A stretch of DNA of 64,000 nt, taken from Spirochaetaceae bacterium 4572_59 (lineage in GTDB: Bacteria > Spirochaetota > Spirochaetia > DSM-2461). Within the stretch, counting starts at the first letter, position 1. Each line of letters opens with the position of its first letter. The DNA is taken from NCBI GenBank assembly GCA_002084805.1, contig NBMC01000003.1, positions 186,001-250,000 of the forward strand, in the 5' to 3' direction. Position numbers and translations under genes: made by a program. Shown piece after piece: positions 5,840-39,280 of the stretch. A model generated the notes under the pieces. It was not told where the DNA came from. It searched no databases and worked only from the letters and a program-made list of their open reading frames with translations.

Positions 5840-6934
5840 TTAAAACTTAATTCCGTAATCCTTGCCGTAATTCTCAACAACAAAGTCTACATCTTTGTCT
5901 CCCCGGCCGCTCAGATTGACCAGTATGGACTGCCTGGGTTTCTCCTGAGCCAGTTTACAGGCAAATGCTACGGCGTGAGCACTTTCCAGCGCAGGGATAA
6001 TTCCTTCCAGACGGCTCAGTTCAAAGAAAGAGTCCAGGGTTTCTTTATCATTAGCAGTAACGTAGTTAACACGTCCCAGATCCTTTAACATGGAATGCTC
6101 GGGACCGACTCCGGGATAGTCCAAGCCGCTGGCAATAGAGTAGACCGGTGCGGGTTCTCCCTTTTCATCCTGCAGCAGGTAACATTTAAAACCATGAATC
6201 ATACCGGGAGATCCCTTTGTCATGGTTGCCGCATGGTCACCCAGATTCAAGGATTTTCCTGAGGGTTCAACACCATAGAGTTCACAGTCCTCATCCTGAA
6301 TAAAAGAGGAGAAGATACCCATGGCATTACTACCGCCTCCGACACAGGCGACAACATTATCAGGATTCTCTCCTGTCATTTCAAAGTACTGTTCTTTCGC
6401 TTCAATACCGACAACCCTCTGAAAATCTCTCACCATCATAGGAAAGGGATGAGGACCCACAACAGACCCTATACAGTAGATACTATTAATAGGATCTTCC
6501 AGATAGGCGCCAAAAGCGGAGTCTACGGCTTCTTTCAGAGTTTTCAGACCGAATGTTACAGGAATAACCTTAGCTCCCAGAATTTTCATTCTTACAACAT
6601 TGGGATGTTCTTTGACAATATCAACTTCTCCCATATGGATTTCACATTCCAGGCCGAAGTAAGCGGCAGCAGTTGCCAAGGCCACTCCATGCTGTCCCGC
6701 ACCGGTTTCTGCGATCAGTTTCTTCTTTCCCAGGTATTTTGCCAGAAGGGCTTCTCCCATACAGTGATTCAGCTTATGAGCACCTGTATGATTCAGATCT
6801 TCTCTTTTGAGATAGATTCTTCCACCATATTTCTCAGACAGGGTTTTAGCATAGTAAACCGGTGTAGGTCTTCCCTGAAAATGTTTTCTAATTGATCTCA
6901 GTTCCGTGATAAAATCGTGAGACGTATTCTCCAT
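5840..6934 (-). CDS. trpB: tryptophan synthase beta chain (orphan)
   Basis: A 364-aa PLP enzyme that makes tryptophan from indole and serine. The PLP lysine is K54 in HTGAHKLN. The phosphate-binding loop GGGSNAMG and the substrate loop ETGAGQHG are intact, and the order of motifs matches TrpB of the classical (TrpB1) type. The ATG at 6934 has AAAGG nearby. A GTG 15 codons upstream (6979) is possible but sits only three bases from its GAGG. No trpA or other trp gene is in the window; neighbours are an ArsR gene and an oxidoreductase. It may work as a stand-alone indole-scavenging enzyme, or pair with a TrpA encoded elsewhere. Confidence 0.92.
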
Positions 6935-7222: not shown

Positions 7223-9241
7223 ATGAAAAAATTACTAATCATCGGCGGTGTTGCTGCCGGAGCCACAGCAGCAGCCAGAGCAAGACGTTTAAATAAAGAT
7301 ATTAAAATTACCATGCTGGAAGCAGGACCGGATGTGTCATTTGCCAACTGCGGACTGCCCTACTACATCGGCGGAGATATTAAAAGTCGGAGTAAACTGA
7401 TACTGCAGAGTCCGGAAAGCTTTAAAGATCAGTATGACGTTGATGTTCATACAATGACCGAAGCTATGGAGATTGACCGGGATGCCAAAATAGTAAAGGC
7501 CATTAAGCATCAAACTGGCGAAACCGTCAGCTATGAATACGACAAACTGATCCTTTCACAGGGAGGAAAACCCTTTATCCCAGGAATGGAAGGGACGGAC
7601 AATGACAATGTATTCTCCCTTTGGACTCTGGAAGATATGGACCGGATTGATGATCATATCAAAAATGAGAATCCCCAATCTGCCGTAGTTGTGGGAGGAG
7701 GGTTTATCGGCCTCGAAATGGTGGAAGCCCTGAAAAAACGGGGACTCACTGTTCATAATGTTGAACTGGCTCCCCATATCATGCCCATGATGGAAGCCGA
7801 GATCGCGGGATACCTGCAGGAAGAACTGGATGCCTACAGAGTCTCTCTCCATACGGGGAGATCCGTAACGGCCATAAAAGACAGATCTGTGGTACTGGAT
7901 GACGGCAGCGAACTGGATGCGGATATGGTGCTTCTTTCTGTAGGTGTCCGCCCCACCCTTACCCTGGCAAAACAGGCCGGGTTGGAACTGGGAGAATCGG
8001 GAGGACTTTTGGTAGATGAATACCTTCAGACTTCCGACAAGGATATCCTGGCAGGCGGCGACATGGCAGAGACTATCCACCGTGTCCTGGGGAAAAAAGT
8101 ACGGATTCCCCTGGCCGGACCTGCCAACAGGCAGGGCAGGATAGCCGCCAGCAATGCACTTGCTTCTTCAGAAGAAGAGAAAATGGCCTACAAGGGTGCT
8201 CAGGGAACCTCGATTGTGCGTGTGTTTGAAGCAGTTGCCGGAACCACAGGACTGAATCTGAAACAGGCTCTGAATGCCGGATTGGATGCCCAGGCCATTG
8301 TTATCAGAAAAGAGAATCATGTTTCTTACTACCCCGGTGGCAGGATGCTTAGCATCCACCTTATATATGATGTGAAAAGCGGGAGGATTCTGGGAGCCCA
8401 GACCGCCGGTTACAACGGAGCAGACAAACGACTGGATGTTCTTTCCACAGCCATTGCAGCAGGAATGACCATAGAAGACTTGGCAGAACTGGATCTGGCT
8501 TACGCTCCTCCCTTCGGTTCAGCCAATGACCCTGTCAACATGGCCGGTTTTGTGGCTCAGAACAGACAAAGCGGATACAGCCCCGCCATTACGGCGGCAG
8601 AGGCCGAAGACTTTATTCGGGACAAAGAACTGGCACTGGTTGATATTAGAGACTACTTTTCCTATCAGAAAGGAACTGTTAAGGGCGCGGCAAACCTTGC
8701 TCCTGAAAAACTGCTGGATGCCCTTGCGGCAGTATCAAAAGATACGGCTATTCTGCTTTTTGATGACAGCGGAAAGATTGCCCATCGTACGGTACGTCAA
8801 CTTTTACTGAATGGTTATTCCGAAGCCCGTTATATCAGCGGTGGTTATCCCAGCCTGGAATACTATGCCAGAGGGGCAGGATTTGAGTTTCTTCAGCTTC
8901 CCCTTCAGACTCCGGAGGAAAAAAACCTGACGGAAGAGCTATCCTCCCCGGTAGCAGATAAAAGTATTGAAGAGAATACAAGCTCCATCGATACAAGCGG
9001 TCCGATTGTGATAGACGTTAGATCACCCGAAGAGTTTGCCATGGGGACCCCCCCGGGTGCTGTAAATATTCCTCTGGATGAGCTTCAGAGCAGAATGAAA
9101 GAACTGGGAGCATTAGATAGGGATATAACACTCTTTTGTACATCAGGCGCCCGAAGCGGTTACGGCCAGAGAGTTCTGGTTCAGCAGGGATTCACAAATG
9201 TGAAAAACGGAGGAAGCCTCGGCCAGATGATGGCCGGTTGA
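7223..9241 (+). CDS. CoA-disulfide reductase-like flavoenzyme with two C-terminal rhodanese domains
   Basis: A 672-aa protein. The N-terminal FAD/NAD(P)H module (IIGGVAAGATAAARARR) carries the single-Cys active site SFANCGLPYYIGG with Cys43. This is followed by the NAD motif VVVGGGFIGLEM and the dimerisation domain ending near residue 445. Rhodanese domain 1 spans about 460-550 and domain 2 about 590-672. Domain 2 has the catalytic loop CTSGARS (Cys about 639). Domain 1 has DDSGKIAHR in the same place and no Cys, so it is probably inactive. Relatives reduce CoA disulfide, polysulfide or persulfide. It has a strong GGGG ribosome site and stands alone, with a TTGACA promoter and an inverted repeat upstream. 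Confidence 0.9.
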   Translation: MKKLLIIGGVAAGATAAARARRLNKDIKITMLEAGPDVSFANCGLPYYIGGDIKSRSKLILQSPESFKDQYDVDVHTMTEAMEIDRDAKIVKAIKHQTGETVSYEYDKLILSQGGKPFIPGMEGTDNDNVFSLWTLEDMDRIDDHIKNENPQSAVVVGGGFIGLEMVEALKKRGLTVHNVELAPHIMPMMEAEIAGYLQEELDAYRVSLHTGRSVTAIKDRSVVLDDGSELDADMVLLSVGVRPTLTLAKQAGLELGESGGLLVDEYLQTSDKDILAGGDMAETIHRVLGKKVRIPLAGPANRQGRIAASNALASSEEEKMAYKGAQGTSIVRVFEAVAGTTGLNLKQALNAGLDAQAIVIRKENHVSYYPGGRMLSIHLIYDVKSGRILGAQTAGYNGADKRLDVLSTAIAAGMTIEDLAELDLAYAPPFGSANDPVNMAGFVAQNRQSGYSPAITAAEAEDFIRDKELALVDIRDYFSYQKGTVKGAANLAPEKLLDALAAVSKDTAILLFDDSGKIAHRTVRQLLLNGYSEARYISGGYPSLEYYARGAGFEFLQLPLQTPEEKNLTEELSSPVADKSIEENTSSIDTSGPIVIDVRSPEEFAMGTPPGAVNIPLDELQSRMKELGALDRDITLFCTSGARSGYGQRVLVQQGFTNVKNGGSLGQMMAG

Positions 9242-9375
9242 AAAGCCCAATCAAATAAGATAATTGTGTCATAATATGCAAAAATCGCAGAATCGTTCTA
9301 ATATCTACAGAAATGTATCATTGTTATCCCCTGTAAACGCCCCTACAATTAACTAACTACAGAAAGGAGACATGT

Positions 9376-10677
9376 ATGAAAAGAATGACAGCCCTCTTAT
9401 TGATGTTGACTCTAACTGTTACCTTGACACCGGTTTTTGCCGGTGGTTCTCAGGAAACAGATGAGGGTCCCATTACAATAACATTTTGGACTCATGAAGA
9501 TCCAAACAGAACTGAGATTGAGAATCGATATATTGCTGAGTTCGAAGCAACTCATCCCAATATTACAATCGAAAGGGTAACTCAATCGTCTACTAAAATT
9601 CAGGAGCTTATTTTAACCGCTTTTGCAGCCAATCAGGGTCCGGATATTTTCAATATGTCAATTGAAGATGAGTTTGCCTATATTGCCAATGGCCGTGTTG
9701 CTTCAGTCGATGCGGAAGCAGCAGGCTATTCAGATATTGAAGCGTTGAGTGATGCCTATGCTCCGGGATCTCTGGATCCTGTCACTGTTGATGGAAAGAT
9801 TTACGGACTCCCTCTTGAACTCACAAACTGGTCAATTTATATCAACAAGAAAGTTTTTATTGATGCCGGTCTTGATCCCGAAAAAGACTACCCGAAGACA
9901 TGGGAAGAGATGGCAGATGTTTCCGAGAAACTGATTATTAGAGATGGCGACATCATTACAAGACGTGGATTTGATTTCCGCTATCCCTACTATCTGGTTT
10001 CATTTGTTCCCATGGTTGAACAGCTTGGTGGCAAATTAATCAGCGATGACGGAAAAACTGCCATTATCAATGATGAAGCATGGCTTACATTTCTGAAATA
10101 TATGAAAGAGTGGGGACCGAACGGTAGAAATTTAGGTTCTCCTACATATAAAAATGCAAGAAAACTCTTTAACAAAGATAATAATGATATAGGTATGGCA
10201 CTGACTGGTCTCTATCAGCAGGGTCGTATTCATGCGGATAATGCGGAATTTTATGATAGTGGTGAGTGGATGGTTGTCCCCTTTCCTACTTTTGAAAATG
10301 CCGTTAATGACGTTGCTGCCTGCTACTACGGCCATTATTATATGGTAAACAGTCAAAAGAGTGATGCTCAGCAGAAAGCTGCCTGGGAATTTGTCGGATA
10401 TATGTTAAGCCATGGTGAAGAATACCTGCAGAAGGTGAACATTGTTCAGCCTACAAAAACACTGATGAGTTCTGAAGCATATACCGGAATGCCCTATTCT
10501 AGTGTTTTCGCTAAAGATCTGGAACGGGGACACGTTGTCTATTTCGGAGAAGAGAGTGCAAAACTTCAGGAATTGATAAAGGGTGCTGTTGAATCTGTTA
10601 TGCTTTCAGGGGTATCACCAGAAAAGGCTCTGGCCACTCTCCGTGCAGAAGCTCAGGAGATGCTGGAAGATAAATAG
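9376..10677 (+). CDS. sugar ABC transporter, extracellular binding protein (family 1)
   Basis: A 433-aa MalE-like binding protein with a signal peptide ending in PVFAGGSQE, a form typical of spirochaete binding proteins. The mature part starts with ITITFWTHEDPNRTEIENRY, and the family signature (DGKIYGLPLE, INKKVFIDAGL, PKTWEEM) is complete. It captures a sugar or oligosaccharide outside the membrane and delivers it to the two permeases encoded downstream. The start has AGAAAGGAG before it. It is followed by a 230-base gap before the permease genes, a common arrangement that allows higher expression of the binding protein. Confidence 0.92.
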   Translation: MKRMTALLLMLTLTVTLTPVFAGGSQETDEGPITITFWTHEDPNRTEIENRYIAEFEATHPNITIERVTQSSTKIQELILTAFAANQGPDIFNMSIEDEFAYIANGRVASVDAEAAGYSDIEALSDAYAPGSLDPVTVDGKIYGLPLELTNWSIYINKKVFIDAGLDPEKDYPKTWEEMADVSEKLIIRDGDIITRRGFDFRYPYYLVSFVPMVEQLGGKLISDDGKTAIINDEAWLTFLKYMKEWGPNGRNLGSPTYKNARKLFNKDNNDIGMALTGLYQQGRIHADNAEFYDSGEWMVVPFPTFENAVNDVAACYYGHYYMVNSQKSDAQQKAAWEFVGYMLSHGEEYLQKVNIVQPTKTLMSSEAYTGMPYSSVFAKDLERGHVVYFGEESAKLQELIKGAVESVMLSGVSPEKALATLRAEAQEMLEDK

Positions 10678-10907
10678 ATTAACTTGTAAGTATTCCTTCA
10701 TTTTTTCAAGACCTTGTACTGCTGTGCCTGCTGAATTTTCAGTCAATCAGCCTCAGCAGTATGAGGTTCCTGCACTTACCAACAGCTTGGATCAGAGAAT
10801 ATACGGATCAGTTGCTTTAAAATTGGTCTATCTTCACTCTTGAAAGACCTATCCGATTCAACCAATCCATATTTTTAAATTAAACCATTTTGATAAAAGG
10901 GAGATCT
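10678..10907 (+). promoter_or_regulatory. gap between binding protein and permease genes with possible attenuating hairpins
   Basis: No open gene is seen here. Two weak hairpins can be drawn: CTGCTGA (near 10729) with TCAGCAG (near 10754), and GGTCT with AGACC (about 10828-10850). Neither has a proper T run. They could slow transcription or protect the binding-protein transcript from decay; this is inference from position. Confidence 0.3.
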
Positions 10908-11828
10908 ATGAAATCACAACAAAAAAGAATAAAACATCAAAGTGTTGAAAAAAAACAGGCGCGTTGGGGTATTGCATTTGTTATTCCATCTTTAGTTTTC
11001 TTCTCACTTTTTAATTTTTATCCTATTATAAATGCTTTCTATACCAGTTTCTTCAAGAAGAAAGTACTCTCACTTAAACCTCCCACATTTATAGGAATTG
11101 ATAATTATGTGTATCTGATCCAATCATCAAATTTCTGGAATTCAATACGGGCTACAGTAGTTTTTACTTTAGGAACCTTCATCCCTCTGTTAGTTTCAAG
11201 CTTGCTGTTTGCCGTACTTATTATTTCCATAAAAAAGGGAAATAAGTTTTTTCAAATAGCTTTATACGCCCCTGCCGTACTCTCCTCCGTAGTCTCTGCC
11301 GCCATCTGGCTTCTGATTTTTGATCCGAGAGGGTTGGCAAATCAATGGGCAAATGTTCTGTTGAATACCTGGGGAGCAGACCATAACTGGCTTGCCAACT
11401 GGACAATGGTTCAAATATCGACCATGCTCGTTTACTTCTGGAAATACATTGGCTATTTCGTAATTATTTTTATAGCAGGTCTATCATCCATTCCCAAAAG
11501 TCTTTATGAAGCCGCCCAGATTGACGGGACGAATTCCTGGCAGGAATTCTGGCAAATTACCCTGCCTCTGCTCAAACCTACTGTCGTTCTTGTTTCCACA
11601 ATGTCCATGCTTCAGTGTCTCAAAACATTTGGAACACAATACCTTTTTACACAGTCTGGCGCTCCGCAGGATCCGATCAATGTTATAACCATGAATATCT
11701 ACAACACAGGTATCCGTGACCACCGGATAGGCCGGGCAAGTACCATGAGTATCATTTTATTTATTATCATGCTCTTTTTCACCTGGTTGCAGTTTAAGAC
11801 TTCAAAAAGTGATGACGTAGAATATTAA
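10908..11828 (+). CDS. sugar ABC transporter, permease 1 (MalF-type)
   Basis: A 306-aa permease starting MKSQQKRIKHQS after GGGAG. It has six predicted membrane segments beginning with WGIAFVIPSLVFFSLF, and the coupling motif EAAQIDGTNSWQEFWQITLPLL (about residues 205-226) that contacts the ATPase. No ATPase gene is in this operon; as in many CUT1 systems, a shared MsmK/UgpC-type ATPase encoded elsewhere must serve it. An in-frame codon six positions upstream is less likely as a start because the ribosome site lies between them. Confidence 0.92.
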   Translation: MKSQQKRIKHQSVEKKQARWGIAFVIPSLVFFSLFNFYPIINAFYTSFFKKKVLSLKPPTFIGIDNYVYLIQSSNFWNSIRATVVFTLGTFIPLLVSSLLFAVLIISIKKGNKFFQIALYAPAVLSSVVSAAIWLLIFDPRGLANQWANVLLNTWGADHNWLANWTMVQISTMLVYFWKYIGYFVIIFIAGLSSIPKSLYEAAQIDGTNSWQEFWQITLPLLKPTVVLVSTMSMLQCLKTFGTQYLFTQSGAPQDPINVITMNIYNTGIRDHRIGRASTMSIILFIIMLFFTWLQFKTSKSDDVEY

Positions 11829-18862: not shown

Positions 18863-19750
18863 TCATTTCGAGAAATTATCATAATGATATATTGTCCATT
18901 TGGATGGGGGGACTCCTGTCTTTTTCTTAAATAATCGTGAAAAATAATACTGATCTTCAAACGCGAGTTTATAGGCAATTTCCTTGATACTCAGCTCTCC
19001 TATTTCCAGAAATTCTTTAGCCTTATTTACTTTCAGATGGAGGAAATATTGGTAAGGGGTCATCCCCGTATAGGATTTAAAAACCTCACAGAGATATGAA
19101 CTGCTCAATCTTAACTGTTCAGCAATTTCTTCTAATTCAAGAGAACGATAAATGTTCTGTTCAAAAAGGAATTTAATTTTTTCAACAAGATCATCGATAT
19201 GATTACTTTGTTCTATGTTACGATCATAGCTTATGATGTCTGCCAATAGCATCATAATATTAGTAGCAGTCCGCATCTGATAACAGGGTTTTTGTTTATT
19301 GATTCTATCAAATATGCTCTGAAAATGGCTCAATATAATATTATGTAAACCAATATAGTAAATTGGTTTTAAACTTTTTATAATTCCTTCATCTGATAGA
19401 GAATCAATATATTCTCCTTTAAATCCGACCCAGTACTCATCCCAACCTGTTTCAATATCCGGCTGGTAAGCATGTTTAATTCCTGGGAAAAGAATAATGA
19501 TTGTTCCCGGAATGACCGTATATTCCTGTCCTTGAGAATAGAATTTTCCACGACCCTTTGTAATATAAATCAGACTATATTCTCTGAGAGTTCTTCCTGT
19601 TGCTACCGATCTATAGACTTGAGGATGGTTATTCATGTTGGGAGGATAAACTATTCCGGACTGTATCTTAGTTGAACCGGCATTTGTACATACCAGCTTC
19701 CACTTTAAGTCTTCCTCACTGTACGTTAGATACTTTGAAAAATTGTCCAT
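18863..19750 (-). CDS. AraC-family transcriptional regulator
   Basis: About 296 aa. The N-terminal cupin-like sugar-binding domain (GRGKFYSQGQEYTVIPGT, PGIKHAYQPD) is followed by a two-unit AraC DNA-binding domain (about 200-290) with LSSSYLCEVFKSYTGMTP and YYFSRLFKKKTGVPP. It is divergent from the sugar operon beginning at 19946, and three phased direct repeats in the shared gap suit an AraC activator. The start is uncertain: in-frame TTG 19765 and GTG 19762 lie just upstream of the ATG at 19750. Confidence 0.9.
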   Translation of the reverse strand: MDNFSKYLTYSEEDLKWKLVCTNAGSTKIQSGIVYPPNMNNHPQVYRSVATGRTLREYSLIYITKGRGKFYSQGQEYTVIPGTIIILFPGIKHAYQPDIETGWDEYWVGFKGEYIDSLSDEGIIKSLKPIYYIGLHNIILSHFQSIFDRINKQKPCYQMRTATNIMMLLADIISYDRNIEQSNHIDDLVEKIKFLFEQNIYRSLELEEIAEQLRLSSSYLCEVFKSYTGMTPYQYFLHLKVNKAKEFLEIGELSIKEIAYKLAFEDQYYFSRLFKKKTGVPPSKWTIYHYDNFSK

Positions 19751-19835
19751 TCCCTGCCCCACCAATTTAGAGCCATTAAATCATGAATCTGGCCAGAACA
19801 CAAAGAAATAATTAGAAATTGTACATTCTTGTGTT

Positions 19836-19887
19836 TTTTGTCTATTATCTCGCTATTTTGTCTATCTCTTCACCCCGTTATGTCCAT
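19836..19887 (+). promoter_or_regulatory. phased direct repeats, probable AraC-type activator sites
   Basis: TTTTGTCTAT occurs at 19836-19845 and again at 19856-19865. A related TTATGTCCAT is at 19878-19887. Spacings of 20 and 22 bp place the copies on one face of the helix, as in I1/I2 half-sites of AraC. The repeats lie 60-110 bases before the rhaM-like start. Confidence 0.6.
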
Positions 19888-19945
19888 TTCCAATCTGAGA
19901 AAACGGGCTGATTATTGTTCTAACGATAATATAAGGGGTACAAAA

Positions 19946-20260
19946 ATGAAGCAGGTTGCTTTCAAGATGAAGTTGAAGCCAGGTTGTGAGGATGAATATA
20001 AAAAAAGACATGATGAAATTTGGTCCGAACTGAAAACGACTCTTTCTGATGTTGGCGTGTTTGATTATTCCATCTATCTGGATAGTGAAACACACACATT
20101 ATTTGCAGTACAGAAATTAAAAGAGGGAGAGACAAGCAGTTCTCTTCCTGATAATCCAATTGTACGAAAGTGGTGGGATTACATGGCTGACATTATGGAT
20201 ACACATGCTGATAAAGCCCCTGTCTGTATCGAACTGAAAGAAGTTTTCCATATGAGCTGA
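19946..20260 (+). CDS. rhaM: L-rhamnose mutarotase-like protein
   Basis: A 104-aa ferredoxin-like-fold protein starting MKQVAFKMKLKPGCEDEYKK. It retains the RhaM features: the catalytic His in KKRHDEIW (about residue 21), FDYSIYLD, and the paired Trp in KWWDYMADIM. RhaM interconverts anomers of L-rhamnose and related 6-deoxy sugars. The ATG follows AAGGGG. It is the first gene of a six-gene operon under the divergent AraC regulator. The symbol is given by family; the actual sugar may not be rhamnose. Confidence 0.85.
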   Translation: MKQVAFKMKLKPGCEDEYKKRHDEIWSELKTTLSDVGVFDYSIYLDSETHTLFAVQKLKEGETSSSLPDNPIVRKWWDYMADIMDTHADKAPVCIELKEVFHMS

Positions 20261-20305: not shown

Positions 20306-21412
20306 ATGAATGCTAGAGAAAGAGTTATGAAGGCATGGGGCCTGATGCCCGGAAAGCCTGACCGTGTACCCCTGCAGTTTGATCTATGTGAATCCCTCTT
20401 GAATCACTTTTCCAAAGAGCTGAACATACCCCTGTCTATAACAAAAAATATTTATGAAGACGTTACCTGGCGTATAAGCGGTAATGAGATCCGTCTGGCT
20501 CTCGGTTCAGATGTAGTAGTCACAGGTGCTTCTGAAGCGTCCGATTTCAAGCCGGAAATAGATGAAAAAGGAACCTGGTTAAATGAATACGAAATGCGTA
20601 TGCGCCAGGGAGACATCTATGTTGAGATTATGGAGTATCCCCTGAAGGATGTGACAACTGTCGAAGAACTGAAAAATACAATTGTTTTTCCTGATTTAAA
20701 CTTACCCGGTAGATTTGAAGATGCGGCTGCCTTGGTAAAGAAATATAAAGACGAATATTTCGTGATTGGTGATATTGAAGTCACTATATTTACTCTAGCT
20801 CAACAGATGGTGGGTATGGAAAAACTCATGATCGATATGGCTATGGGAGAGGAGTATATTCCCGTCCTTATCAATATGATTACTGATTTTCATATTGAAC
20901 ATGGTCTGAAGCTTATGGATCAGGGTGTTGATGCTCTCTGGGCGGGTGATGACTTCGGAGCTCAAACAGGTCTTCTGTTTTCCAAAGAAATGTTCCGTGA
21001 TATCTGGAAACCTGCCTATGTCCGAATGTGTAATGCCTTTAGAGAAAAAGATCCTGATATCAAGTTGATACTGCATTGTGACGGAGCTGTCAGTGAACTT
21101 ATGGATGATTTTATAGACATTGGCTTCCAGGTTTTTAATCCCGTTCAGCCTGGCGTACCCGGTCATGGTCCTGAAGAAATGAAGAGAGGATGGGGAGACA
21201 AGATCGGTTTCTGGGGCGCCATAGACCAACAGGAGCTGATTCCCCTTGGCAGCGATGAAGATCTTGAAAAAGATTTGATTGAGAAAATTTCAATCCTCGG
21301 AAAAGACGGGGGATATGTTGTTGCACCCGCTCATATTCTACAACCTGATGTTACACCGGAGAGAGTGAAAACATTCATCGATCTTTGCCATAAACATGGA
21401 TCGATTTATTAA
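20306..21412 (+). CDS. uroporphyrinogen decarboxylase-fold protein of a sugar operon
   Basis: A 368-aa protein of the URO-D/MtaA superfamily, starting MNARERVMKAWGLMPGKPDRVP after AAGGAG. The segment ILHCDGAVSELMDDF and then FNPVQPG correspond to the His/Cys-containing strand that binds zinc in the methyltransferase members; the barrel end APAHILQPDVTPERV is typical. Relatives decarboxylate uroporphyrinogen or transfer methyl groups. Members inside sugar operons, as here, have no assigned reaction that I know of. It is flanked by a mutarotase and an isomerase-like gene, so its substrate is probably a sugar-derived intermediate. Confidence 0.82.
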   Translation: MNARERVMKAWGLMPGKPDRVPLQFDLCESLLNHFSKELNIPLSITKNIYEDVTWRISGNEIRLALGSDVVVTGASEASDFKPEIDEKGTWLNEYEMRMRQGDIYVEIMEYPLKDVTTVEELKNTIVFPDLNLPGRFEDAAALVKKYKDEYFVIGDIEVTIFTLAQQMVGMEKLMIDMAMGEEYIPVLINMITDFHIEHGLKLMDQGVDALWAGDDFGAQTGLLFSKEMFRDIWKPAYVRMCNAFREKDPDIKLILHCDGAVSELMDDFIDIGFQVFNPVQPGVPGHGPEEMKRGWGDKIGFWGAIDQQELIPLGSDEDLEKDLIEKISILGKDGGYVVAPAHILQPDVTPERVKTFIDLCHKHGSIY

Positions 21413-21424
21413 AGGGTGAATGAA

Positions 21425-22849
21425 ATGTCTAAAAAAATTAATGTAGGGCTCTATGGGATAGGGCTGGATACTTATTGGGACCAATTTGAAGGATTATATG
21501 ACAGATTGGTCGGTTACCAGGATTCTATTGCTGCTGAAATGGGTCGGGATGAGATCAATATTGTCAATGCGGGCCTGGTAGATAATCCTGAATCGGCCAG
21601 AGAAAAGGGCCTCTTTCTGAAAGAACATAATGTAGAGCTTATTTTTCTCTATATCTCGACCTACGCCCTTTCTTCAACAGTACTTCCTGTTGTGCAATCA
21701 GCTGGCGTTCCGGTCATCATTCTGAACTTGCAGCCTGTATCCAGAATTGATTATGAGAGCTTCAATAAGCTGGGTGACCGGGGAAAGATGACAGGTGAGT
21801 GGCTTGCTCACTGCCAAGCCTGCTCTGTCCCTGAAGTAGCAAATGTGTTTAACAGATCTGGAATTGATTATCATTTTGTCACTGGGTATCTGAAAGAAAA
21901 ACAAGTTTGGATCGATATAAACCAGTGGCTGGATGCAGCTGTTGTCAGAGCGAGTTTAAGAGACAGCAGAATCGGAATACTGGGGCATTATTACAATGGC
22001 ATGCTGGATGTTTACACCGACATCACTCTTCTTTCAACTGTTTTCGGGTCTCATTTTGAATTGCTTGAAATGTGTGAGCTCAAAAGAATCCGGGACCAGA
22101 TTTCTGAGAATGAAATAAAAATAAAAATTGAACAGTTTCACAAAGAATTTCATGTTTCTGACGATTGTGAGGACTATGAAATCGAGCGGGCTGCTCTGAC
22201 GTCCTGTGCTCTGGATACTCTTGTAGAAGAAAATAATCTGGGAGCCATGGCCTATTATTATGAGGGAAGTGCCGGCAATGAGTATGAAAATATTGCGACA
22301 TCCCTGATTGCCGGAAATACACTTCTTACCGGCCATAACACAGCCATTGCAGGTGAGTGTGATATTAAGAATGCTGTGGCTATGAAAATCATGGATACTC
22401 TGGGTGCCGGAGGTTCTTTTTCTGAGCTGTATGCCATGGATTTTGAAGATGACATTGTTATGTGGGGACATGATGGCCCTGCTCATGCAGCTATTGCAGA
22501 GGGTCCTGTCAACCTCGTTCCTCTACCAATTTATCACGGGAAACCCGGAAAAGGTTTATCAATCCAGATGACAGTAAAAAATGGACCGGTAACTCTTTTG
22601 TCTGTTGTTCAGGGAGTAGACGGAAAGACATTCCTTCTCTGTGCGGAAGGTGAATCAGTATCAGGTCCTGTTCTTCAAATCGGAAATACAAATTCCAGAT
22701 ATAAATTCCCATTATCTGCCAAAGAATTTACTGAGAACTGGTCTAAAGCAGGACCCGCTCACCATTGTTCTATAGGGATAGGCCATATTTCAGACAAACT
22801 GGAAAAGCTTTCGGCATTGCTGGGTATTGAGTGTCTGAAAATCTGTTAG
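21425..22849 (+). CDS. L-arabinose/L-fucose isomerase-family protein
   Basis: About 474 aa. The overall pattern is that of the AraA/FucI-like fold: GLYGIGLDTYWDQF at the N-terminus, a central LYISTYALSSTVLPV, and candidate metal ligands spread as in AraA (GECDIKNAV near 320, MDFEDDIVMWGHDG near 340-350, HHCSIGIGH near 450). The family interconverts aldoses and ketoses with Mn2+. Similarity to true AraA is low, so the sugar is unknown. The ATG at 21425 has AAAGGG upstream; GTG 21416 is the alternative. The gene begins 12 bases after the URO-D-like gene. Confidence 0.78.
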   Translation: MSKKINVGLYGIGLDTYWDQFEGLYDRLVGYQDSIAAEMGRDEINIVNAGLVDNPESAREKGLFLKEHNVELIFLYISTYALSSTVLPVVQSAGVPVIILNLQPVSRIDYESFNKLGDRGKMTGEWLAHCQACSVPEVANVFNRSGIDYHFVTGYLKEKQVWIDINQWLDAAVVRASLRDSRIGILGHYYNGMLDVYTDITLLSTVFGSHFELLEMCELKRIRDQISENEIKIKIEQFHKEFHVSDDCEDYEIERAALTSCALDTLVEENNLGAMAYYYEGSAGNEYENIATSLIAGNTLLTGHNTAIAGECDIKNAVAMKIMDTLGAGGSFSELYAMDFEDDIVMWGHDGPAHAAIAEGPVNLVPLPIYHGKPGKGLSIQMTVKNGPVTLLSVVQGVDGKTFLLCAEGESVSGPVLQIGNTNSRYKFPLSAKEFTENWSKAGPAHHCSIGIGHISDKLEKLSALLGIECLKIC

Positions 22850-22931
22850 GGAATATCCGGTATTAAATGAATTTGTTTTTTATTTCCTCATCATGAGGAA
22901 TAAGAATAATTATGAACTTAAGGAGAATATA

Positions 22932-23930
22932 ATGAAAAAAATCTTAACATTGATCCTGTTGGTACTGCTTATGACAAGTGCAGCATTTGCCAATGGTCAG
23001 GGAGATAAAAAAAAGGGTGATGATGAAATCATAATCGGGTTTAACAACGGTTCAACTGCAGTTGATTTCTTACGTCAGGTTGGCGAAAGCATGGAAAGAG
23101 CAGCAGCAGAAAACGGAATCAAAATTGTGGTAGCCGAATCTAATTTTGAGGCGGAAAAAATTCTGCCTAATGTAGACGCTATGCTGCTTCAGGGGGCCGA
23201 TATCATTGTCGACTTCAATGTCAATGCAGAAATCGGTGGCAGTCTTGTGGACTATTGTGGTGAGAAGGGCGTTCCTGTCATAGGAATCGATGTGGGATAT
23301 ACCAGCCCCTCAGGTGAACAGGCCTGGTTTTTTGGCGCCAACAACCAGATGGCAGGAGAAGTTGCAGGAGAGGGTCTGGCTAAAGCGGTCAGGGAACAAT
23401 GGAACGGAGAGCTGGACTATATGCTTCTTTTCTTCAATTCTGAGAATGGTGAGCTTGTAAAACTGAGACTCTCTGGAATGTATGACGGCCTTACAGCCGC
23501 TGGAATTGATCTTCCTCTGGATAGAGTTGAATATATTGATGTCGGCGGTGGCGGATCTGACTCTACTATTTCTGCAAACCAGAAGATGACCGACTGGCTT
23601 ACAGCCCATCCCGACCTGGATAATATTGCGGTAGGTGCTGTCAATACAGAGACTGGACAGGGTATTTTTTCTGCTGTACAGGCTGCAAACAGAGATTCTG
23701 ATGTATTTCTTGCCACAAACAATAATGGGCAGCAGACTCTGGCAGCTTTTCAAATGGGTGAAAACTGCTGGCTCGGCGGTACAGCTTATTACCCTACCCA
23801 GTATGGAGACTATATCATCCCTCTTTGTATTGATATCCTGGCCGGAAAAAATCCCGACAAGATTCAGACCATGGAACATGAATTTCTTACCAGAGATGAA
23901 ATTGACCAGATTATAAAAGAAAACAGCTGA
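22932..23930 (+). CDS. sugar ABC transporter, RbsB-type binding protein
   Basis: A 332-aa periplasmic binding protein. The signal peptide is MKKILTLILLVLLMTSAAFA and the mature part starts NGQGDKK. The type-I fold follows, with GADIIVDFNVNAEIGG and a C-terminal NPDKIQTMEHEF. It uses AAGGAG before ATG 22932. It delivers the sugar processed by the upstream enzymes to the RbsA/RbsC-like pair downstream. Confidence 0.9.
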   Translation: MKKILTLILLVLLMTSAAFANGQGDKKKGDDEIIIGFNNGSTAVDFLRQVGESMERAAAENGIKIVVAESNFEAEKILPNVDAMLLQGADIIVDFNVNAEIGGSLVDYCGEKGVPVIGIDVGYTSPSGEQAWFFGANNQMAGEVAGEGLAKAVREQWNGELDYMLLFFNSENGELVKLRLSGMYDGLTAAGIDLPLDRVEYIDVGGGGSDSTISANQKMTDWLTAHPDLDNIAVGAVNTETGQGIFSAVQAANRDSDVFLATNNNGQQTLAAFQMGENCWLGGTAYYPTQYGDYIIPLCIDILAGKNPDKIQTMEHEFLTRDEIDQIIKENS

Positions 23931-24022
23931 TTTTATATTTCTCACTGCGGGTCATGTATCTGCAGTGAGAAGAGAATCAGACTGGATGCTCAATGAAAAA
24001 AACGATTAAGAGCGGGAGTCAT

Positions 24023-25549
24023 ATGAGTAATGAATATATTCTTCAAATGAAGAATGTTGTAAAGCAGTATCCGGGTGTGCTTGCTCTTGATAAAGTAGAC
24101 CTTGACTTAAGAAAAGCAGAAGTTTTTGCTTTAATCGGTGAAAATGGGGCTGGTAAATCGACCCTTATGAATATCTTGTCTGGAGCCATCAACAGAGATT
24201 CCGGGGATATACTAATAGATGGAAATGAGATTCCTCTTTTCACAAAACCCAGCGAGCAGATGGAGGCAGGAATTGCCATTATCTATCAGGAACTCAACTA
24301 CCTGGAAGAGATGACCATTGCAGAAAACCTTTTTATGGGATGTGTTCCGGTAAAAGGATTTCTGAAACAGGTAGACTATAAAAAAATGAAAAGGGACAGC
24401 CAGGAACTTTTAGCGAGCTTCGACCTCAGCTATCACCCTTTTACACTGGTAAAAACCCTGACGATAGCAGAAAAACAAATTATTGAAATTATCAGAGCCG
24501 TTTCAAAAGATATTAAAGTTTTGATCATGGATGAACCTACATCTTCATTGAATGATGTGGAAACCAGACAGTTATTCGGTTTTATAGAGAGTCTGAAAAA
24601 GAAAGGCGTCTCTGTTATCTATATTTCCCATAAACTGGATGAGGTATTCACCATTGCTGACAGGGTCCAGGTCATGCGTGATGGAAAGAAAGTAGATGTT
24701 CTGGATGTGAAAAGTACCAGCCATTCTGAACTGGTCAAATTGATGGTGGGAAGAACCATCACCGATATGTATCCGAAGGAAGGAATTAAGATAGGAGAGG
24801 AAGTTCTCCGTGTTGAAAATATGTCCTGTCATATCACTAAAGATGTCTCTTTTTCCGTGAAAAAAGGGGAGATTCTGGGACTCTTCGGCCTTGTGGGATC
24901 AGGAAGGGTAGAGGCTGTGGAAGGATTGCTTGGAATTAATTCCATCCATGCGGGAAAGATCTTTATAGAGGGAGAAGAGATTAAGATTGCTAATCCTATT
25001 GAAGCCAAGAAAAAAGGCATTGCCTATATTCCCAGTGACAGAAAAGAGGAAGGTCTTGTCCTTATGCACTCAGTCAAGGACAACCTGACTGTAACCCGGG
25101 TCGATGAAATCGGGAAAGGTTTTAAGATTGACTCGAAAAAAGAAAAGGAATACTGCGAGACCTGGATCAATAAACTGAGGATCAAAACACCATCTCCATT
25201 TGTATCGATCGAATCCCTCAGCGGAGGAAATCAGCAGAAGGTGGTCATAGCAAAGTGGCTTTTGACGAATCCGAAGGTTCTGATCATGAATGATCCCACC
25301 AGGGGTATCGATGTGGGAGCCAAGGTTGAGATCTACAAGGTGATGGAAGAACTCTGTAAGGAGGGCATCTCTATCATCGTTGTCTCTTCTGAACTCCCTG
25401 AGACTGTGGGAATCACAGACCGCATGGTTATCTTTTCAGATGGACAGGTGGTTGGTGAGTTTGACCGCAGCGAATATGACCAGAACAAAATACTACACCT
25501 GGCGGTAGGAGGAGAATCAAATGACAAAAAACATAGCTGTGAAAACTGA
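24023..25549 (+). CDS. sugar ABC transporter, RbsA-type double ATPase
   Basis: About 508 aa with two ABC modules. Module 1 has Walker A GENGAGKST, Walker B LIMDEPTSSL and switch YISHKLDE. Module 2 starts near residue 255 with the degenerate Walker A FGLVGSGRVE, signature LSGGNQQKV and Walker B LIMNDPTRGID, where the catalytic Glu is Asp. This asymmetric pattern is normal for CUT2 ATPases. ATG 24023 follows GGGAG; ATG 23993 ten codons earlier is the alternative. The 3' end overlaps the permease start by 29 bases. Confidence 0.92.
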   Translation: MSNEYILQMKNVVKQYPGVLALDKVDLDLRKAEVFALIGENGAGKSTLMNILSGAINRDSGDILIDGNEIPLFTKPSEQMEAGIAIIYQELNYLEEMTIAENLFMGCVPVKGFLKQVDYKKMKRDSQELLASFDLSYHPFTLVKTLTIAEKQIIEIIRAVSKDIKVLIMDEPTSSLNDVETRQLFGFIESLKKKGVSVIYISHKLDEVFTIADRVQVMRDGKKVDVLDVKSTSHSELVKLMVGRTITDMYPKEGIKIGEEVLRVENMSCHITKDVSFSVKKGEILGLFGLVGSGRVEAVEGLLGINSIHAGKIFIEGEEIKIANPIEAKKKGIAYIPSDRKEEGLVLMHSVKDNLTVTRVDEIGKGFKIDSKKEKEYCETWINKLRIKTPSPFVSIESLSGGNQQKVVIAKWLLTNPKVLIMNDPTRGIDVGAKVEIYKVMEELCKEGISIIVVSSELPETVGITDRMVIFSDGQVVGEFDRSEYDQNKILHLAVGGESNDKKHSCEN

Positions 25550-26522
25550 TAATAATATGACTGTAAAAATAAAGACTCTTTTTGGAAAGATGGCTGGACT
25601 TGGTAATAACTTCAGCCTCTCCATCGCTCTGATCATACTGTGTGTGATATGGGCAATTGCCTCACCCTATTTCTTTACTCTTCAGAATGTCATGAATGTT
25701 CTGATGTTTGCTTCCATTCTGGCAATCCGTGCCTCTGGATTGACCATTGCCATGATTATGGGAGGCCTTGATATATCTCAGAATGCTGTGGGAGCCGTTT
25801 CGGCTCTGCTTTGTGCCATGGCCAGTCTTGCTGGAGCACCCTGGTGGCTTGTAATACTGCTGATGCTGGGATTGAGCCTTTTGATGGGTGTTGTTAATGC
25901 CACTCTTATATCAGGCTTTAAAATCCCCGCCATCATCACCACGTTGGGGACCATGCAGATTTTCAGGGGTGTCGCATGGCTTATTCAGGATTCAACTGTC
26001 ATGGTGAAAGATCCTGTCCTTCTCAAACTGGGTCGTGGCCGTCTGTTCGGAGTCGTTCCCTATATTGCCTTAATTGCTATAGCTATACTGGCCATCACTT
26101 TCTACATTCTTCAATACACATCTTTTGGACGAAAGGTGTATATGGTGGGGGGAAATGAAAAGGCCAGTTACCTTTCAGGGATCAACAGCAACAAGGTGAA
26201 ATCCCTTGCCTTTGTCTTCAGTGCGCTCACCGGAGGAATCGCCGGTTTTCTCCTGGCATGTCAGGTAGGAGCCGCGCTGCCCCAATCGGGAGCCGGTACG
26301 GAGATGATATCCATCTCTGCTGTCATCCTGGGTGGTGTCAGTCTCGCCGGTGGAAAGGGAAAAATCTCGGGAACCATTCTCGGAGTTCTAATCCTACAGG
26401 TTATCAATAACGGCTTGACCCTGCTCAGCGTGAATGCCTACTACCAGATGGTAATAAGCGGTTCTGTACTAATCCTCGCTGTGATGATTGATATCATCAG
26501 AAGCGGTGCATTAAAGAAATAA
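25521..26522 (+). CDS. sugar ABC transporter, RbsC-type permease
   Basis: A 333-aa CUT2 permease with about eight to ten membrane segments. Family hallmarks are TIAMIMGGLDISQNAVGA, GGNEKASYLSGINSNKVK and SAVILGGVSLAGGKGKISGT. It starts inside the ATPase gene (ATG 25521 after GGAGGAG), so synthesis is probably coupled. It is the last gene of the AraC-controlled operon. Confidence 0.92.
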   Translation: MTKNIAVKTDNNMTVKIKTLFGKMAGLGNNFSLSIALIILCVIWAIASPYFFTLQNVMNVLMFASILAIRASGLTIAMIMGGLDISQNAVGAVSALLCAMASLAGAPWWLVILLMLGLSLLMGVVNATLISGFKIPAIITTLGTMQIFRGVAWLIQDSTVMVKDPVLLKLGRGRLFGVVPYIALIAIAILAITFYILQYTSFGRKVYMVGGNEKASYLSGINSNKVKSLAFVFSALTGGIAGFLLACQVGAALPQSGAGTEMISISAVILGGVSLAGGKGKISGTILGVLILQVINNGLTLLSVNAYYQMVISGSVLILAVMIDIIRSGALKK

Positions 26523-26632: not shown

Positions 26633-26664
26633 AGTATCCCCCCCGAGGGGGAATACTATTTTAA
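26633..26664. terminator. strong symmetric hairpin between convergent genes
   Basis: ATAGTATCCCCC and GGGGGAATACTAT pair around a short CGA-type loop with one G-T pair, giving a 12-13 bp stem directly downstream of the small minus-strand gene. T runs are short (TTTT on the plus strand), so termination is likely but not certain. Confidence 0.6.
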
Positions 26665-26911: not shown

Positions 26912-27146
26912 TATTGTTCCTTTTGCTCCTTATAATTTATTCCGGAGCATAAGGCATTATAGGCTCTTTGAAAAAATATGATAGCTGAGAACCATAATTA
27001 TCTGTTTTTATGCAGGATATCAGGGCTCTCCCGGGTTTCAGAAACAAGGGAACGGTAGAGATAACTGTAGCAGGCTCATATCACTAAATATTTTCTGACA
27101 GGATTCCGCTTCTCTGGCTATAATAAAGAATCAAAGGAGTGATCAT

Positions 27147-28049
27147 ATGGCCCCCTATATCCTGACTATCGGCCTTAACCCTGTCTGGCAAACTACCCTG
27201 GCCTTCCCGGAACTACAGATGGGAGAGGTCAACCGGAGCCGCAAGTATTCCTCCTGCTGTTCCGGCAAGGGATTAAATGTCACAAGAGTCCTGCATCAGG
27301 CGGATATTGCGGTAAAGCATCTGACATACATAGACAGTATGAATGGAGCCTTTTACAAATCTGTAAGAGAGCAGAACCTTCCGGTCCAGTATATTCCGAC
27401 AAACAGTGTAATCCGCGGCTGCTATACCCTGCTTGACCATAAGGGAGGATCTGCCACCGAAATCGTAGAACAAGGCAGAACCGTTCCAGCGGAAGCAGAA
27501 GAAGAGATGATGGAAGCTTTCGGAGAACTGCTCACTGATGCCTCTCTCGTAATTATCTCCGGATCCCATGCTGATGGATTTTCCAGGAATATATACCCTG
27601 AAATGAGCCGGAGAACAAAAAATGCAGGAAAGACTCTAATCCTCGATATCAGAGGATTAGAGTTGCAGGACTGTCTGAAATATAGACCTGATTTGATAAA
27701 ACCCAATCGGGAGGAATTCTGCCAGACCTTTCTACCCGGAAAAAATTATCACGAAGTACCGGAATCCCGGCTGGAAGAGACCATGCTCAGCCTCTATAAA
27801 CAGTGGGGAATCTCTACCATCCTGACCAATGGAAAGGGTTCCACTCTTATCTGTTACAAGGGGGAGATTTTCCGCAGCCAGCCGGAAAAACTGAAGAATT
27901 GGGTCAATCCCATCGGCTGCGGCGATGCCTATACGGCCGGACTGGCTGCGGAGTTCTTCCGTGGGAACGGGATTCTTCCGGCGATAAAGCGAGCGGAAGA
28001 GTTCGCCCGACGGAATGCCATGAGTTTTGTGCCGGGGGATATAAAATAA
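27147..28049 (+). CDS. PfkB-family sugar or sugar-phosphate kinase (1-phosphofructokinase subgroup)
   Basis: A 300-aa ribokinase-fold enzyme. The N-terminal signature TIGLNPVWQTTL with CSGKGLNVTRVLHQADI resembles the FruK/LacC subgroup that acts on sugar phosphates. The catalytic base lies in NPIGCGDAYTAG (Asp about residue 257), where the usual GAGD is GCGD. AAAGGAG precedes the ATG. It ends at a strong terminator and has no operon partner, but could supply the kinase missing from the adjacent sugar operon; this is inference. Confidence 0.85.
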   Translation: MAPYILTIGLNPVWQTTLAFPELQMGEVNRSRKYSSCCSGKGLNVTRVLHQADIAVKHLTYIDSMNGAFYKSVREQNLPVQYIPTNSVIRGCYTLLDHKGGSATEIVEQGRTVPAEAEEEMMEAFGELLTDASLVIISGSHADGFSRNIYPEMSRRTKNAGKTLILDIRGLELQDCLKYRPDLIKPNREEFCQTFLPGKNYHEVPESRLEETMLSLYKQWGISTILTNGKGSTLICYKGEIFRSQPEKLKNWVNPIGCGDAYTAGLAAEFFRGNGILPAIKRAEEFARRNAMSFVPGDIK

Positions 28050-37320: not shown

Positions 37321-39280
37321 ATGAATACTTGGCAATTACAGGAAAAAGAATGGGATATGACTCAATATGAAAAGTATGAAACTCTTTTTGCCTTAAGTAA
37401 TGGTTATCTGGGAGCCCGCGGCAGCTTCGAAGAAGATGGTATAAACTGCGGACCCGACGGATTCTATATGAACGGTTTTTATGAAAGCTATCCGCTCAGC
37501 TATGGTGAGACGTTTCCTGCCTATCCGGCGACCAGCCAGGCCATGGTAAATCTTCCCAATCCTAAAAGACTGAAGCTCAGCATTGACGGAGAGCTCTTCT
37601 CTCTCGCAAAGAATCCACCCCTGGAATATGAGAGGACTCTCGATATGAAGTCTGCGATTCTCAGCAGAAATCTTATATACCCTTTGGGAAACGGGAAAAA
37701 ATCCGTATACAATCGGAGCGTTTTATCTCTGCCGTCCATAAAAATCTCTTCTGCCTGAGCTACAGAATTACAGCTCTGGAAAACAACTGCATAATCCGCC
37801 TGTCATGCGACGGAAGGGAAACTATCCCTTCAGGGAGGAATTCATAACTCCGGGCTCGCATTCGGCAGTTCTATCGTTCATAAACTGGAAGGAGTGGACA
37901 TATCAAAAAGAGAAGTTCTTTATAATGACAGTTTCTCTGGAGAAATATGGCATTTCAAACTGGATGCTGGTAAAACAGCCGTTCTGAAGAAATTTGTTTG
38001 CTATGAAAAAGGCAACGCTAAAACGGAACAAGCCCTCTATGATTTTAACAGTCTGAAAAAAGAACATAGCGCCTGGTGGCACAGGGCCTGGAAATCAATG
38101 GACGTCTCCATCAACGGAGACAAGGCCATGCAGCAGGGAATCCGTTTTAATATGTTCCACCTCCTGCAGTCTGCCGGTAAGGATGGGAAGACAAATATAG
38201 CCGCAAAGGGGATGACCGGAGAAGGCTATGAAGGTCACTACTTCTGGGATACGGAAATATATATGAACCCTTTTTCACATTTACTAATCCTGTCATTGCC
38301 GGAAGTCTTCTGGAATACCGTTACTCCATACTGGATGCCGCCCGGGATAGAGCCCGCGAAATGGGACATAAACAGGGGGCTCTTTTCCCCTGGCGCACCA
38401 TAAGCGGCCCCGAATGCTTCCTGCCGGGACAGCCCAGTACCATATCAGCAGCGATGTGGCCCATGCGGTAAAAGTATATTGGGAAGGAACGGAGGATGAG
38501 AACTTCCTCCTGACAAAAGGTGTGGATCTTCTGATGGAAACCAACCGCCTGTGGTCGGATATGGCCGTCTATCATTCTGAGTCAGACAGCTATGCCATAC
38601 AAAATGTAACCGGCCCGGATGAATACACAGCACTGGTGGATAATAACTTCTATACAAACAGCATGATTAAGGATCAACTGAAATTTTTCACGTCACTCTT
38701 GGAGGAATACAAAAAACGTCCCAATAATGACCCCTTCTGATGCACTATCATCCGCTGACACTCTACCGCTATCAGGTCTGCAAACAAGCAGATGTGGTAC
38801 TGGCGGAATTCCTGCTGAGTGAAGAGTTCTCCCGGGAACAGAAGATCCGGGATTATGAATACTATGAAAAGATAACAACCCATGACTCCTCCCTCTCCCC
38901 CTGTATCTACGGCTGTATGGCCAGCGATATAGGCAGAATTGAAGAAAGCTACAACTACTATGTAAAAACGGCACGCACCGATCTGGATGATTTTCACGGG
39001 AATGTAAAAGACGGTGTCCATGCTGCCAATATGGCTGGTTCCTACCTACGGGTTTGCCCGTATGCGCCATAAGGATGGTAGGCTGGCATTCTCTCCTCTG
39101 CTACCCCATGCCTGGGAGTCGTACTCCTTCAAAATACATAAGGGAGATGCGCTTCTTGCGGTTCAAGTCGGCCCTGAAAAAACCGGATATAAACTTTTAA
39201 AGGGAGACTCCCTCCTGATCAGTCATTATGGAAAGAATTGTCTTGTAACAAAGGAATATCGGGAATTAGCGAATACCTGA
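37321..39280 (+). pseudogene. GH65 disaccharide phosphorylase (maltose/kojibiose/trehalose phosphorylase type), multiply frameshifted
   Basis: Family 65 sequence can be followed in order through alternating frames: TLFALSNGYLGARGSFEED (start), FISAVHKNLFCLSYRITAL (from about 37717), HKLEGVDISKREVLYND (37880s), [21 protein letters not shown], then [19 protein letters not shown] after a lost T near 38272. It continues with [17 protein letters not shown] (38415), the catalytic-acid motif VTGPDEYTALVDNN, TLYRYQVCKQADVVLAEFL (38750s), and finally FSPLLPHAWESYSF. At least six frame changes occur (about 37715, 37830, 38272, 38412, 38735, 39048) and some blocks are missing. The enzyme would phosphorolyse a glucosyl disaccharide; it cannot be made from this copy. 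Confidence 0.85.

Follow-up and report, generated by a model that had tools for sequence, protein, structure and literature searches.

A sugar-linked and corrinoid-linked URO-D-fold protein encoded beside an L-rhamnose mutarotase in a Spirochaetaceae bacterium: a predicted sugar O-demethylase

Described systems closest to the locus

Many polysaccharides from algae, cyanobacteria and bacteria carry methylated sugars, and the P450 methyl-sugar demethylases need oxygen. In the available text of PMC8360166, the enzymatic removal of a sugar methyl group is the work of such a P450 monooxygenase: the 6-O-methyl-D-galactose demethylases of Formosa and Zobellia release formaldehyde, and the sugar can then be degraded. 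The same unmasking of a methyl sugar is proposed here for a protein of an unrelated family. If this proposal is true, a corrinoid route would account for the use of methylated sugars by anaerobes, both their carbon and the methyl group, and many database entries labelled 'uroporphyrinogen decarboxylase' would gain a function.

Among corrinoid-dependent systems, the three-component demethylases and dehalogenases (OdmB, VdmB, MtvB, MtoB and CdmB), which we compared mainly by description, belong like our protein to the URO-D superfamily and work with corrinoid protein and activase partners, the methyl group passing to a stand-alone corrinoid protein, as we propose here. Their proven substrates, as given in the accessible portions of PMC13222342 and PMC8630106, are methoxylated aromatics (OdmB, VdmB, MtvB and MtoB) and haloalkanes (CdmB), not sugars; the former source also marks MT1 clades of unknown substrate. 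A corrinoid protein is encoded in the Cdm and Mto gene clusters but is missing from the cluster studied here. CdmB (9rui) was a weak match to our wide-family profile (20.9 bits, E 0.002); phmmer from the paralogue L010 returned nothing useful for it, and it was absent among the matches listed in the fold searches with our model.

The methylcobamide:CoM methyltransferases MtaA and MtbA share with the protein the URO-D fold, the position of the metal site and, by our proposal, a corrinoid partner; however, they are thiol-acceptor enzymes, the MtaA/CmuA rows of our alignment carry His-Cys-Cys instead of His-Asp-His, and the tree described below places them opposite the protein. CmuA, according to the part of PMC13222342 available, is a methyltransferase and a corrinoid protein in one, and its URO-D domain methylates the corrinoid; its site is H-x-C..C and its corrinoid function is fused, whereas the protein studied here is stand-alone. 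Mlp clusters have been tied to methyl-sulfur/selenium (PMC10418091, available text). The L-rhamnose catabolic clusters (RhaM, RhaA, RhaB and RhaD) are comparable in that the orthologues have RhaM, and at some loci other genes for rhamnose, around them. As far as its available main text goes, a 2013 survey of rhamnose regulons does not mention uroporphyrinogen, demethylation, methylated compounds or corrinoid (PMC3870299), and no paper on corrinoid-dependent sugar demethylation was found in the open-licence literature among the matches listed. UroD-superfamily MT1s for aromatics and haloalkanes are known, and what appears to be new here is the proposed sugar substrate together with a remote, shared corrinoid protein.

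The gene and its rhamnose-type context

The window, that is, the whole stretch of 64,000 nucleotides that was analysed (contig NBMC01000003.1 of Spirochaetaceae bacterium 4572_59), contains at 20306..21412 (+ strand) a full-length ORF with an ATG start that encodes 368 aa, in which URO-D (PF01208) was the sole family found by the Pfam scan (96.4 bits, cut-off 23.9). The sequence-only reading had placed a URO-D-fold gene between a mutarotase and an isomerase-like gene, and its coordinates proved exact: upstream lies the L-rhamnose mutarotase RhaM (19946..20260, + strand; TIGR02625, 108 bits, above the cut-off of 99.6), for which an ATG start was picked manually inside ORF 19829-20260, and downstream lies an AraA/FucI-superfamily sugar isomerase (21416..22849, + strand; PF11762 above cut-off), which reached 57-64 bits against NCBIfam equivalogs with cut-offs >600 and is not RhaA. 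A ribose-type ABC transporter follows the isomerase, comprising a sugar-binding protein (22893..23930, + strand; PF13407), an ATPase of the XylG/AraG/RbsA type (23993..25549, + strand; Pfam/NCBIfam profiles) and a permease of the AraH/RbsC type (25521..26522, + strand; PF02653). An AraC-family regulator is encoded divergently (18863..19765, - strand; PF00165/PF12833/PF02311). Further downstream, a PfkB-family sugar kinase (27147..28049, + strand; PF00294) possibly forms a separate unit from this cluster; a terminator-like site at 26637 and a promoter-like site at 27095 precede it in a pattern scan in which promoter-like sites were no commoner than in shuffles. Neither RhaB nor RhaD was found among the nine window neighbours scanned.

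That the protein is a real sugar-linked and corrinoid-linked member of the URO-D fold is well supported. Because of the gene partnerships in its relatives, its conserved site and the partner genes in the same genome, together with PF01208, the tree and an AlphaFold2 model, we propose that it is probably a sugar methyl ether:corrinoid-protein methyltransferase (MT1), namely that of a corrinoid-dependent O-demethylase for an O-methyl sugar, most likely O-methyl-L-rhamnose. The demethylase activity is a strong prediction from sequence comparison.

Among the matches listed, the closest relatives (up to 63% identity) come from Bacteroidota and not from the window's order, and the orthologues in that order and in Spirochaetes MAGs reach 42-46% identity. 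The carriers include a cultured bacterium, Mariniphaga anaerophila DSM 26910 (L113). Within the order, the orthologue is present in five of 26 genomes, including the source genome. We compared 86 loci, including those of the best 80 of 130 relatives. The neighbour probes were members of clusters built here; GH78 and other rhamnosidases are therefore uncounted, and the kinase and aldolase markers are family-level. Since seven of the 86 loci (L067, L078, L097, L105, L121, L124 and L151) comprise less than 5 kb of DNA, the neighbour counts are lower bounds. On this basis, RhaM was the commonest neighbour among the families probed, lying within 3 kb of the orthologue in 30 loci and within 300 bp in 24; when the 35 RhaM copies were placed at random within their own loci, the count averaged 1.9 loci and never exceeded 8 in 2000 trials. 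A GH106 alpha-L-rhamnosidase was found within 3 kb in 13 loci, and the counts at the same distance were lower for an AraA-like isomerase (7/86), GH29 fucosidase-type genes (5/86), a class II aldolase (4/86), and RhaT, RhaA and an FGGY kinase (3/86 each). Any rhamnose-type marker lay within 8 kb in 43 loci. In a Clostridiales MAG (L126), the gene order is class II aldolase, a gene on the opposite strand, rhamnulokinase-type kinase, rhamnose isomerase, RhaM, orthologue and ABC transporter ATPase; here RhaA scored above its cut-off, the kinase matched rhamnulokinase best (463, cut-off 528) and the aldolase fell far below the RhaD models.

Among these 86 loci, the best matches of the window's RhaM (up to 69% identity) and of its isomerase (up to 69%; 54-69% for the best seven matches) were in Bacteroidota and Verrucomicrobia loci, and RhaM of L068, which belongs to the window's order, followed closely behind the best with 62.5% identity. 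The best match of the AraC-family regulator (39.9%) was the regulator beside the orthologue in L045, and relatives of it also occur near the orthologue in L085, L102, L130, L132 and L134, while the transporter proteins had distant matches only. These results suggest that RhaM, the URO-D protein and the isomerase may have moved together as a three-gene module.

We also considered that the protein could be a corrinoid-dependent MT1 with another substrate, either a different methylated sugar (e.g. O-methyl-fucose) or a methylated side group released together with rhamnose, RhaM and the isomerase then serving the co-released sugar. The AraA-like isomerase of the window, which is not RhaA, and the GH29 genes counted above are consistent with this explanation, as is the presence in the same genome of a separate RhaA cluster with a URO-D paralogue of its own. 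However, the rank of RhaM as the commonest of the neighbours probed and the rhamnose isomerase of the L126 cluster point to rhamnose, and we consider a different substrate rather unlikely.

Corrinoid partners and the putative metal site

The sequence-only reading had noted that no corrinoid gene is near, and this holds: no B12-binding_2 protein is encoded near the URO-D gene, and the two found in the genome, one MetH-type and one stand-alone (P0002, 210 aa), are on two other contigs. No other URO-D match of the genome lies on the window's contig. Even with no corrinoid gene close by, the URO-D protein may still depend on corrinoid. P0002 scored 188 bits against TIGR02370 (methyltransferase cognate corrinoid proteins; cut-off 215), and its gene stands in a row with three others, coming after those of a RACo activator and a PocR/AraC regulator and before that of an aldose 1-epimerase (L156:3988-9318). 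No methyltransferase gene was found beside this cluster in the 16 kb read, and the RACo protein, used as a probe, had no match in the 86 loci.

In two relatives, a corrinoid protein is encoded directly after the orthologue. The Prevotella sp. 10(H) locus (L134) has four genes in a row: that of the orthologue (8001-9104); 11 bp on, that of a corrinoid protein (9116-9757; PF02310+PF02607); after a further 18 bp, that of a Met_synt_B12 activation domain (9776-10465); and, 2 bp later, that of an MtaA-like URO-D protein (10468-11454). RhaM (6373-6687) lies on the opposite strand, 1.3 kb from the orthologue. In the Anaerolineales locus L141, the corrinoid protein gene begins 27 bp after the orthologue. 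In the DNA fetched, a corrinoid protein gene was present in six of the 86 loci (within 300 bp in two) and absent from 80. The MtaA-like protein L001 of the source genome groups with the MT2 proteins of such operons (SH-aLRT 99), and this MtaA-like group carries the His-Cys-Cys set expected of the second methyltransferase; we therefore infer that the first step falls to the orthologue.

We further compared the occurrence of URO-D and stand-alone corrinoid proteins at the genome level, counting as the latter any open frame of 265 aa or less that matched PF02607 (E <=1e-13 in Bacteroidota) and tallying the tables by eye; these counts ignore kinship and genome size. Within the window's order, 16 of 18 genomes with URO-D proteins and none of the eight without had a stand-alone corrinoid protein (Fisher's test, P = 2.9e-5), taking any match, including a truncated 153-aa frame in G313 and a 30-bit match in G305; with a threshold of at least 45 bits, the count was 15 of 18. 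The URO-D genomes G312 and G319 lacked one. When only orthologue carriers of the order were considered, the difference was not significant (5/5 vs 11/21, P = 0.12). In Bacteroidota, a stand-alone corrinoid protein occurred in 20 of the 23 carriers examined and in 12 of 117 other genomes (P = 3.6e-13), the carriers tending toward larger genomes than the comparison set. Among 39 carrier genomes, which represent 40 of the 80 best-relative loci, three (G323, G353 and G354), all of them MAGs and possibly incomplete, gave no B12-binding_2 match. Seven genomes of the window's order have one stand-alone corrinoid protein per 11-38 URO-D matches, the ratio reaching 38:1 in G299.

A recurrent corrinoid cluster was observed in four of the five Bacteroidota carrier regions (L199, L200, L201 and L203). 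This hub cluster encodes a 222-aa corrinoid protein, a 539-aa URO-D protein and homocysteine S-methyltransferase-type and CobW-type proteins; the URO-D protein has an F-x-C..C site in the three tested and a C-terminal thioredoxin domain in L201, where the domains were confirmed with Pfam. In the fifth region (L202), a corrinoid protein is accompanied by a RACo-type gene in place of the hub set. On another contig of the source genome, a gene for a 449-aa fusion of URO-D and thioredoxin adjoins a CobW-family GTPase gene (L160:3505-5862), an arrangement resembling the Bacteroidota hub.

The site of the protein was analysed by counting alignment columns over 148 rows, the orthologue rows being the window protein and 88 members of one loose single-linkage cluster (at least 32% identity); they include second copies from some loci, a few of which may be paralogues, and L120 and L137, missed by the ORF caller, are absent from these counts but present in the neighbour counts. 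The HCDG motif (residues 257-260; 21074..21085, + strand) aligns with the HICG stretch of MtaA (4ay7), H257 and D259 being equivalent to the first two metal ligands there, and H343 (21332..21334, + strand) is equivalent to the third, which is Cys in MtaA. We take the aligned MtaA residues to be its zinc ligands. Position 257 is His in 89/89 orthologue, 34/39 wider and 11/12 MtaA/CmuA rows. At position 259, 85 of the 89 orthologue rows have Asp and four have Cys, 38/39 wider rows have Asp or Cys (19 each) and 11/12 MtaA/CmuA rows have Cys, and position 343 is His in 89/89 orthologue, 37/39 wider and 3/3 HemE rows but Cys in 11/12 MtaA/CmuA rows. The sequence-only reading had assigned HCDG to the metal-binding region, and the alignment agrees, except that its Cys is not equivalent to a ligand: Cys occupies position 258 in 63 of the orthologue rows, the remaining 26 having Ser or Thr, for which reason C258 was dropped as a candidate. 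By these counts the conserved motif is H-x-D-G rather than HCDG, and all three positions of the MtaA site are occupied, with His-Asp-His replacing His-Cys-Cys; this HxD..H set is found in the window protein and in 85/89 orthologue rows, compared with His-x-Cys..Cys in MtaA/CmuA. Outside this site, D216 (20951..20953, + strand) belongs to a GDDxGxQ motif characteristic of proteins on the MT1-like side of the tree, its column being Asp in 89/89 orthologue and 38/39 wider rows and in 0/12 MtaA/CmuA rows. Compared with a thiol, an oxygen leaving group would be better served by the harder His-Asp-His set. The available text of PMC13222342 describes zinc-containing as well as zinc-free MT1s, CdmB and the Moorella O-demethylase being among the latter, so that a metal need not be essential to MT1s.

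The difference between this site and that of MtaA could also indicate a metal-dependent sugar enzyme that uses no corrinoid, such as an epimerase, a lyase or a decarboxylase with the URO-D barrel as its scaffold, in which His-Asp-His has replaced the thiol-binding His-Cys-Cys, and the lack of a corrinoid gene in the window and in the fetched DNA of 80 loci would agree with it. Against this explanation stand the operons of Prevotella and Anaerolineales, in which corrinoid genes accompany the orthologue, and the genome-level link to stand-alone corrinoid proteins, and we regard it as unlikely. Nothing positive was found for a sugar decarboxylase. Of the roles in sugar metabolism suggested by the sequence-only reading, the demethylation of an O-methyl sugar is supported by the L134 operon, by the rhamnose-type genes in half of the loci (43/86) and by the position of P0002 beside RACo, whereas decarboxylation has no positive support.

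Fold, phylogeny and the proposed reaction

We computed an AlphaFold2 model of the protein from 62 sequences (mean pLDDT 96.5) and compared it with known structures using VIA-align. UroD structures (Z 30.3-28.3) and MtaA (4ay7, Z 29.1) were followed by B12-independent methionine synthases as the next fold group (Z <=17.8); judging from the model, the choice between UroD and MtaA is beyond what the fold alone can decide. Phylogenetic analysis of 83 proteins placed the window protein among 64 rows on an MT1-like side, opposite 19 rows containing HemE, MtaA, CmuA and related proteins (SH-aLRT 100), which separates it from all three reference families that the sequence-only reading had named for phylogeny. 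Its own clade (starred) contains 12 rows, with proteins of Bacteroidota, Verrucomicrobia, Latescibacterota, Calditrichota and Clostridiales. The tree, which was built with a quick method and includes 26 orthologue rows counting the window's, has 11 long branches, and the placement of CmuA in it is unsure; it omits own_L014, the second CM4 URO-D protein, L012 (internal stop), L023 and L042 (a duplicate). Searches with the single window protein gave no match in the PDB (phmmer) or in an initial scan of the genome contigs. A scan of viral sequences gave 41 pattern matches and zero relatives, and plasmid searches, which supplied reference sequences for CmuA and HemE, gave nothing closer to the window protein than distant relatives.

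The possibility that the protein is an MtaA-type MT2, with a methylated corrinoid protein as donor and a thiol or folate as acceptor, is raised by the fact that its best NCBIfam match is TIGR01463 (mtaA_cmuA). However, its score of 62.1 bits is far under the cut-off of 235.4, it lies on the opposite side of the tree from MtaA, and the L134 operon already encodes a distinct MtaA-like protein of the His-Cys-Cys group; an MT2 role is thus very improbable, and membership of MtaA/CmuA was rejected. A true uroporphyrinogen decarboxylase can practically be dismissed, since beyond the common fold the protein scored 20.6 bits against TIGR01464 (cut-off 302.95), the three HemE rows form a clade of their own across the branch with SH-aLRT 100, and the HemE stretches MRQAGR and FSDIL, presumably porphyrin-binding, are absent, being replaced in the window protein by LCESLLNHF and VTGASEA. 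The protein is therefore placed outside the HemE clade on grounds of both the tree and the replaced stretches, contrary to what the sequence-only reading had named as refuting its view.

Under the favoured reading of the protein as the MT1 of an O-demethylase, the reaction might proceed as follows. The ABC transporter would import a methylated monosaccharide, and RhaM would supply the reactive anomer. The methyl ether would then bind in the TIM barrel near a putative metal held by the conserved residues H257, D259 and H343, and this metal may activate the ether oxygen as leaving group. Transfer of the methyl group to Co(I) of a stand-alone corrinoid protein would give the free sugar and methyl-Co(III). 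In the source genome, the partner would be P0002, the only stand-alone corrinoid protein found, which the RACo protein of the neighbouring gene would keep reduced; the genes are present, and the pairing is a proposed one. An MtaA-like MT2, e.g. own_L001, could pass the methyl group to folate or homocysteine, while the freed sugar would enter an isomerase and kinase route.

These results also allow a broader and tentative proposal, which could well hold but which we rate somewhat short of probable: the URO-D sets of anaerobes, in the window's order and in relatives from Bacteroidota, Chloroflexota, Planctomycetota and Verrucomicrobiota, may form a hub-and-spoke system for methylated sugars, in which one stand-alone corrinoid protein would serve many sugar-specific URO-D O-demethylases, each encoded in the operon of its sugar. 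Such a system would be the oxygen-free counterpart of the P450 route, with a His-Asp/Cys-His site tuned to an oxygen leaving group.

The source genome (3.3 Mb) contains 14 URO-D matches, one of which has an internal stop, and several adjoin genes of ribose-type ABC transporters. On another contig (L161:3410-9282), genes for RhaA, an aldolase-like protein and an FGGY kinase lie near a URO-D paralogue of the HxD..H type. Elsewhere in the window, a GH65 gene at 37321-38740 is divided into three separate ORFs, one a piece of the N-terminal domain and two pieces of the central domain, and represents either a broken gene or a sequencing error.
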